Shown here piece after piece: positions 1,953 to 4,204 of a DNA stretch of 64,000 bases. A program made the translations under genes and the position numbers. The notes under the pieces are model-generated. The model saw nothing but the letters and a program-made list of their open reading frames with translations, did not search any database and was not told where the DNA came from. The stretch covers positions 1 to 64,000 of the forward strand of contig CAMYKW010000004.1 in NCBI GenBank assembly GCA_947259175.1. The letters are read 5' to 3'. Each line of letters opens with the position of its first letter. Positions within the stretch are counted from its first letter, which is position 1. The DNA is from an uncultured Gammaproteobacteria bacterium (GTDB lineage: Bacteria > Pseudomonadota > Gammaproteobacteria > Arenicellales > JAANXG01).

Positions 1953-2164
1953 CCCGTATATTGCGGCTGATGCAATATGCGGGTTACTCCCGTGCCGCGG
2001 CCGATTCGTTTCCGGCATCTTCCGTAGTCCGTTCGCAATGTCAAAGGCGCTCCGCGCCGGCCCCGCCGCGGACTTTCCGGTATTTCGAATTGTTCTCCAA
2101 TATCACTCATTTGGGTGAAGAAATCCGTCACGGACATGGGTAAGGTAAGTGGCCAATGCTTGGA

Positions 2165-2285
2165 GGCCGGCGGCGAGGGATCGCCGCTTATACCAAGGAT
2201 GGGACCAGGGCGAACCAGGGACGGTGAACCCTGGTTTTATCGTGGAACAAAACCCCGTGCTTGAGCACGGGGAGACTCAATCAGG
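2165..2285 (+). ncRNA. Candidate structured RNA / IS200-IS605-type right-end remnant (three consecutive perfect stem-loops)
   Basis: GCGGCGA-GGGA-TCGCCGC (2170-2187), AACCAGGG-N8-CCCTGGTT (2213-2236), CCCCGTGCT-TG-AGCACGGGG (2253-2272) followed by AGACTCAA; no convincing ORF across the stretch. Confidence 0.4.
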
Positions 2286-2367
2286 GTGTAATCGCACCGA
2301 CTGTCGCCGGTGACCGCAGGGCGTCGTCTAATCGCTGCGGCCGCGCGCCGTCGTCGAGGTTATAGCG

Positions 2368-4204
2368 TCACCCCGATTTTGGATAGCCGAGTATATTCAG
2401 GGCGCCGGTGATTTCTCCCAGGATTGCCGGATCATCGATGGTTGCGGGGGCCTTGTACTCCTCGCCATCCGCTATTTTGCGCATGGTTCCGCGCAGGACC
2501 TTTCCCGAACGGGTCTTCGGCAGCCGTTGCACCACCGCTACCTGTTTGAACGCGGCGACCGGACCGATCTGCTCACGCATGAGCTTGACGAGCTCGGGCA
2601 CGATTTCCGCGTCCTGCCGATCGACACCGGCCTTCAACACCACCAATCCCACCGGTAATTGTCCTTTCAACGAGTCGGCGGCGCCGATGACCGCGCACTC
2701 GGCTGTTGATGACGTCGTCGATGCGGCTCATAATCCACAGATAGCCGTCGTCGTCTTTGTAACCGGCATCGCCGGTCAGGTAGTAGCCCGGATAGCGGCT
2801 GAGATAGGATTCCTGATAGCGGGCGTCGTTGTTCCACAGCGTCGGCAATGTTCCCGGGGGCAAGGGAAGCTTGATCGATATCGCGCCCATATCGTTGGCG
2901 GGGACGGAATTGCCTTGTTCGTCCAATACCTGCACATCATAGCCGGGCACCGAGCGAGTGGGGGAACCGGGCTTCACCGGTGCGAAATCGATCCCCATGC
3001 AATTGGCGGCAATGGCCCAACCGGTTTCGGTCTGCCACCAATGATCGATGACCGGAACCCGCAACATGTCTTCGGCCCAGTGCAGGGTGTCGGGATCGCA
3101 ACGCTCACCCGCGAGAAACAATATCCGGAACTTGGATAGATCGTACTTCTTGATGTACTCGCCGCCCGGATCTTCTTTCTTTATCGCCCGAAATGCGGTG
3201 GGTGCGGTAAACATGACCTCCACCCCGTGCTCGGAAATTACGCGCCAGAATGCGCCCGGATCCGGTGTGCCGACGGGTTTTCCTTCATAGACTATTGTCG
3301 TGCAGCCGTGGAGTAGAGGCGCATACACGATGTACGAGTGGCCGACGACCCAGCCCACGTCCGACGCCGCCCAGTAGACTTGTCCGGGTTCGACGTCGTA
3401 AATATTCTTCATCGACCATTTCAATGCGACGGCGTGTCCACCGTGATCGCGAACCACGCCTTTGGGTTGCCCCGTCGTACCGGACGTGTACAAGATGTAC
3501 AGTGGATCGGTTGCCTCGACCTGCACGCAGTCCGCGGGTGTTGCGGCGGCAGCTGCGTCCGCCCAGTCTATATCGCGCCCGTCGATCATGGCCGCGGTCG
3601 CCTCCGGCCGAGCCAGAATCATGCAATGTCCCGGTTTGTGGCTCGCCAATTCGATCGCCTCGTCGAGCAGCGGTTTGTATTCCACAATACGGCCCGGCTC
3701 GATGCCGCATGACGCGCTGACGATGACCTTCGGTTTGGCGTCGTCGATGCGCGTGGCCAGTTCGTTGGCGGCGAAACCGCCAAACACGACGGAATGGATC
3801 GCGCCGATGCGTGCGCATGCGAGCATGGCGACAACCGCTTCGGGCACCATAGGCATGTATACGATGACCCGGTCTCCCTTTTCCACCCCGCGATCAGCCA
3901 ACGCACCGGCGAATTGCGCCACCAGGTCACGTAACTCGCGGTACGTAATCCGGCGAACGGTATCGGTCACCGGGCTGTCATAGATTATCGCCAACCGATC
4001 GCCGTGGCCGTTCTCTACGTGCACATCAACGGCGTTGTAACACGTGTTCAAGCGTCCGCCGGTGAACCACTGATAGAAGGGTGGATTCGAATCATCCAAT
4101 ACCCGGTCCCATTTGCGGGACCACTGAATGGCTTCGGCGGCCTCGGCCCAAAACTCATCCGGATTGGTTATCGAACGGTTGTAGATCGATTGATAGTCTC
4201 CCAT
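2368..4204 (-). pseudogene. prpE: Propionyl-CoA synthetase (acetyl-CoA synthetase family), frameshifted by internal deletion
   Basis: ORF 2573..4204 carries the AMP-binding motifs (YTSGTTGQPKGVV, WWQTETGWAI, YLTGDAGYKDDDGYLWIMSRIDDVIN); the C-terminal end (ECAVIGAADSLKGQLPVGLVVLKAG...) continues in another frame in ORF 2368..2670. Confidence 0.85.

Follow-up and report, generated by a model that had tools for sequence, protein, structure and literature searches.

A probable terminal-only remnant of a PATE-type, IS200/IS605-like element beside a conserved candidate small-RNA gene in an uncultured gammaproteobacterium

We found that positions 2241-2280 of the window (the whole stretch of 64,000 nt analysed here) are very probably the terminal-only remnant of a non-autonomous IS200/IS605-type element (PATE), and that the two hairpins to its left lie in a separate conserved element. 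The assignment follows from the combination of no coding capacity, near-terminal hairpins, a TTTAT target with a TCAA tip, empty sites in relatives without target duplication and putative guides that by sequence match the pairing logic of IS608.

Three stem-loops of two origins

A preliminary description of this DNA had pointed to three consecutive perfect stem-loops in a gene-free stretch. All three are present on the + strand exactly as written, namely hairpin 1 (GCGGCGA-GGGA-TCGCCGC, 2170-2187), hairpin 2 (AACCAGGG-N8-CCCTGGTT, 2213-2236) and hairpin 3 (CCCCGTGCT-TG-AGCACGGGG, 2253-2272), the last followed by AGACTCAA ending at 2280. We found no convincing gene in the stretch, and the folding of 151 nt beats 200 out of 200 dinucleotide shuffles (z -4.56). 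An Rfam search of the stretch returned no family at gathering score; low-threshold matches to NsiR1, the ClpQY promoter, HgcC and anti-hemB all fell below their gathering scores and were set aside.

The hairpins are real but are two unrelated things, hairpin 3 on one side and hairpins 1 and 2 on the other. When the window's own genome was searched with positions 2130-2300, 8 further significant matches were obtained (E 5e-5 or better), all within about 2231-2282, while nothing significant was returned for hairpins 1 and 2. Further copies, which the preliminary description had proposed to look for, thus exist for the hairpin 3 part only. Three sister species carry window positions 2133-2238 at about 90 % identity, beside acs and without hairpin 3. 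Since the genome matches are confined to hairpin 3 and the sisters keep only 2133-2238, hairpin 3 is a dispersed repeat adjoining a conserved single-copy region. A single structured RNA across all three hairpins is ruled out because the parts are inherited separately. What had been described as one stretch is a composite of the conserved region 2133-2238 and the dispersed repeat 2236-2281, and hairpins 1 and 2 belong to a different, older conserved element.

A 166-nt family inserted next to TTTAT

We searched for the repeat by covariance model in six genomes of the genus (the own genome and 5 sisters); the genomes compared in this work are draft MAGs. The model gave 2-36 matches per genome, with dispersed copies in the own genome and in 5 of the 5 sister genomes searched. 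Matches often come in twos, about 130 nt apart on one strand, which correspond to the left and right ends of a 166-nt element; the family amounts to about 60 copies in the six genomes of this one uncultured gammaproteobacterial genus. The aligned full copies have a mean column identity of 89 %, with end hairpins at columns 13-35 and 147-166 and ends that are not inverted repeats of each other. Neither the full form (166 nt) nor the short form (40 nt) has room for a transposase, and the family is without coding capacity; folded as single-stranded DNA, the full element is strongly structured (z -8.24). A left-end motif scan of about 85,000 species genomes, possibly without the own genome, gave matches only in this uncultured gammaproteobacterial MAG group.

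The copy in the window (2241-2280, + strand, 40 nt, covariance model match of 71.3 bits) is a terminal-only, core-deleted copy and has the same boundaries as about 12 other short copies. This short form consists of the left outer sequence, one hairpin and the right tip. On the + strand the family alignment places a putative left guide, AAAA, at 2249-2252, at the 5' foot of the hairpin in a position equivalent to the GL of IS608 (PMC5934647). It is followed by a left-end-type hairpin, CCCCGTGC-TTGA-GCACGGGG, at 2253-2272 and by the right cleavage motif TCAA at 2277-2280, which forms the right end of nearly all copies and is identical to the CR of IS608 (PMC5934647). The preliminary reading of the last hairpin as a decayed IS200/IS605-type end without a transposase is borne out, as are its placement of the right boundary at 2280/2281 and its choice of TCAA as the cleavage motif on the right. 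The term "right end" fits the tip only, the stem being a left-end stem fused to it after deletion of a 126-nt core.

The target motif TTTAT lies at 2236-2240 (+ strand), left of the insertion and inside the T-tract of a terminator-like hairpin, as read from the empty sequence of relatives: TTTTTTAT stands at the same place in L022 and L023, both without the element. Over 53 copies the left motif is T in 48, T in 49, T in 48, A in 45 and T in 50, and the base following TCAA (+1) is T in 43 of 52 copies. We joined the flanks of 26 copies, searched six genomes with them and found several empty sites in relatives that span the joined-flank junction. By our own reading of the alignments, if the element runs as CGCGG..TCAA and both the TTTAT to its left and the base that follows it are counted as flanks, joined flanks and empty sites are equal in length for L028/L143, L032/L117, L033/L147, L039/L145, L040/L122 and L042/L138. 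The empty sites L122, L138 and L145 contain TTTAT themselves, and no target duplication was seen at the empty sites of the element. Because the lengths match only with TTTAT and the final T excluded, an element spanning 2236-2281 (46 nt) was rejected: its leading TTTAT is target and its final T is flank. The window itself was discarded as a clean empty-site pair, as L022-L024 lack the element but the DNA right of 2281 is not alignable with the relatives. Some copies, including that of the window, sit just 3' of terminator-like hairpins, the T-tracts of which can supply TTTAT. Two copies, L009 and L179, adjoin a recurrent sequence of ~90 nt; in the left flank of L009 it ends in a terminator-like hairpin, and many copies of it are found in all six genomes at 80-94 % identity.

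Transposition, core loss and rival readings

IS608 inserts 3' of TTAC, which is retained in the left flank, and uses CR TCAA, GL AAAG and GR GAAT; each cleavage site is base-paired to a guide located at the 5' foot of an end hairpin, the structure shows A16:T-3 and A17:T-4 explicitly, and selection extends to the +1 base (PMC5934647). With CL TTAT and GL AAAA on the left and CR TCAA and GR GATT on the right, the element fits this scheme by sequence, and the bases after its left hairpin are AT, as A42 and T43 of IS608. Guide position 2 is invariant and position 4 is conserved to at least 90 %; positions 1 and 3 are looser, with the first (A9) conserved in about 85 % only. Guide position 4 pairs with cleavage position -1 in the IS608 structures. 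If the same holds here, the C:G pair of IS608 would correspond to T:A in the element. The natural joint shift, from target TTAC to TTAT and from guide AAAG to AAAA, would be useful for checking the base-pairing rule of IS608 independently. The element resembles IS608 and the IS200/IS605 elements in the target retained in its left flank, TCAA, the putative guides at the 5' hairpin feet and the preference for one +1 base, and differs from them in encoding no transposase and in having TTTAT instead of TTAC, AAAA instead of AAAG and GATT instead of GAAT. Since it encodes no Y1 transposase, we consider it a non-autonomous relative of IS200/IS605 and not a member proper.

By analogy with these systems, we hypothesize that a Y1 (HUH) transposase acting in trans would insert the 166-nt element as single-stranded DNA directly 3' of TTTAT, with recognition of the site through base pairing to AAAA, the putative guide at the foot of the left hairpin. 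At the present locus the site would have been the T-tract of a terminator-like hairpin. A later deletion from one end hairpin to the other, similar one would have removed the core, so that the left flank with its guide, a single hairpin and the TCAA tip of the right end remained. IS200-like tnpA genes occur in G005 (L076) and, apparently truncated, in G002 (L085). Their end hairpins strongly resemble the element's own, CCCCGTGC-TTGA and CCCCGCGC-GTAA, with different outer sequences; the covariance model of the element matches L085 weakly. An autonomous parent with the same ends was not found in the genomes searched, and the trans-acting transposase is likely a relative of these TnpAs.

The only Y1 gene of the own genome, in L021, is RAYT-like. 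It falls near the REP-associated transposases without reaching the NCBIfam cut-off, and one could imagine that its product spread hairpin 3 as a REP/BIME-type palindrome. We regard this as very unlikely: the gene (L021 1137-2057) is bracketed by its own, different inverted repeat of 36 nt (AATGCAAATGCGACTCATTTGTCACCGACCCCTTTT, 89 % complementary), no GTAG/CGTC-type tag is found at the foot of the hairpin, and, like IS200/IS605 elements, the family has a left end that differs from its right end, together with a fixed target (TTTAT) and a TCAA tip. The right boundary and the TCAA tip do resemble IS605 right ends, and it was by this analogy that the preliminary description considered a solo omega-RNA, in which a retained right end would serve as 3' scaffold of a guide RNA for TnpB and the guide would begin at 2281. 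A functional omega-RNA is extremely unlikely, as TnpB is undetectable in 13 genomes: PF07282, the tnpB marker, is absent from the own genome and from 12 other genomes of the family, and PF01385 is absent from the own genome. The lack of an Rfam family at gathering score also speaks against it. Only the last 8 nt of the window copy are clearly derived from the right end, the right-end sequence upstream being deleted, and bases 2283-2299, in the proposed guide, match elsewhere in the genome at chance level only.

A third reading holds that the hairpins are nothing but a bidirectional terminator for the convergent flanking genes. Terminator-like features exist on both strands: on the - strand the left hairpin (2272-2253) is followed by TTTTGTT, the complement side of the AAAA guide, and faces the end of acs, and on the + strand the 2202-2237 hairpin is followed by T's. 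Such a reading leaves the dispersed copies, their fixed boundaries and the TTTAT target unexplained, and the two parts are inherited separately. A crude ORF test revealed no evident preference in how the copies are oriented towards genes. We therefore consider it quite improbable that termination is the whole explanation. Termination may be a side effect of the hairpins, and insertions of the element could add terminators.

Returning to the PATE remnant, full and short copies differ by 126 nt, which is the distance between the two end hairpins. The stem is of the left type (GTGC..GCAC) in most short copies and of the right type (CGCGC..) in L009 and L170, and the short copy L028 shares private variants with the full copy L039 of the same genome. 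Because stem types differ among short copies and L028 and L039 share variants, we infer that the core was lost at least two or three times independently. The copy sequences suggest deletion in situ; among the copies compared, no locus was found with a full copy in one species and a short copy in another. Since the window remnant lacks the right guide (GATT in full copies), the 40-nt form is expected to be immobile and probably is. It is rather unlikely that this form is itself mobile, being excised and inserted in trans by means of its hairpin, left guide and TCAA tip; if it were, it would be among the smallest transposable units. The 7 short copies against 1 full copy in the window's genome fit amplification of the short form, and serial independent deletions fit too.

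The PATEs of Haloquadratum walsbyi have no inverted terminal repeats, no target duplication and near-terminal palindromes related to IS605-type transposons (Dyall-Smith et al. 2011, PMC3119063). Core deletion between their palindromes gives 52-bp terminal-only copies, and the authors suggest that short copies may still move (PMC3119063). The 166-nt family is of the same kind, in a bacterium, and the window copy is an ordinary but well-defined remnant. It shares with the Haloquadratum PATEs the near-terminal palindromes, the absence of inverted terminal repeats and of target duplication, the lack of room for a transposase and the terminal-only form. It differs in being gammaproteobacterial, in its sequence, in TTTAT/TCAA, in a short form of 40 nt and in that no TnpB-bearing element was detected in the genomes studied here. 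A PATE-like element consisting of ends only has been described in Halanaerobium (PMC7290912). Free-standing IS605 stem-loops in Borrelia plasmids (Delihas 2009, PMC2775950) are likewise end hairpins without a transposase, some of them near 3' ends of genes, whereas here a defined parent family of 166 nt, with empty sites, accounts for the hairpin. IS605-like hairpins that stand alone and carry a TCAA tip are not necessarily omega-RNAs and can be core-deleted PATEs, here in a lineage in which TnpB is not detectable. Searches that identify solo omega-RNAs by their hairpins should take this into account.

The conserved element beside acs

Hairpins 1 and 2 lie in a region, 2099-2241, that we infer to be a regulated small-RNA gene. 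It is single-copy and located between an E2/SGNH-type region and acs. Conservation in the sister species begins near 2075, peaks at 2099-2238 and ends at the T-tract, with unalignable intergenic DNA around it; the putative small-RNA region is about 90 % identical in G001, G004 and G005. With a covariance model we found a more distant homologue in another genus (G007, E 3e-17), likewise beside acs, plus weaker ones.

Upstream of the putative small RNA, at 2103-2118 (+ strand), we found an operator-like palindrome, TCACTCATTTGGGTGA, with 0 mismatches to the consensus TCACYCATWTGGGTGA and the only strong copy of it in the window. The motif occurs 1-10 times per genome in 12 of 13 genomes of the family, and the reversed-pattern control gave 0. 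At 27 motif loci a TAnnnT hexamer is enriched 16-21 nt downstream of the motif, with constant spacing (23/27 have T at offset 16, 18/27 have A at offset 17 and 18/27 have T at offset 21). This combination is present at many unrelated intergenic sites (L210-L239; window 2102-2125) and suggests a regulon. In the window a putative -10 hexamer, TAAGGT, is located at 2141-2146 (+ strand), its recurrent spacing pointing to a promoter role.

The sequence is consistent with a promoter under regulation and an RNA of ~86 nt that would start near 2153, reach 2239 (+ strand) and end in a terminator-like hairpin. In the predicted fold an outer stem, CTTGG/CCAAG (2159-2163/2193-2197), encloses hairpin 1, and the terminator-like hairpin (about 2202-2210/2229-2237) precedes the T-tract, which is not conserved in G004 and G007. 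Relatives preserve the pairing of about 2204-2210 with 2229-2235; stem 2 as first drawn is present in the window but broken in the relatives, where G2218 is T, A or C. Counted over an alignment that is model-fitted and includes weak matches, 95 % of cells are paired and 16 pairs have two-sided changes, which speaks for the structure.

Alternatively, 2099-2239 could be a small protein gene and not an RNA gene, given that three relatives keep an open frame (..GWDQGEPxxVNPGF..) across it. The window copy of this frame is shifted, G004 has no ATG, the differences fall mostly at non-synonymous positions in a codon-by-codon reading and the conservation extends upstream into the operator-like palindrome and the -10-like hexamer; we thus consider a protein gene unlikely. 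The small-RNA candidate, conserved in the family and with a recurring operator-like motif, is testable and plausibly a new gene.

The adjacent acs (window 2368-4204, - strand) is split into two frames near 2650-2700 in comparison with the intact copies in L022 and L204, which may be due to an indel in the gene or to an assembly error. Hairpin 1 of the window has one extra base relative to the relatives, and this difference may be of the same kind.
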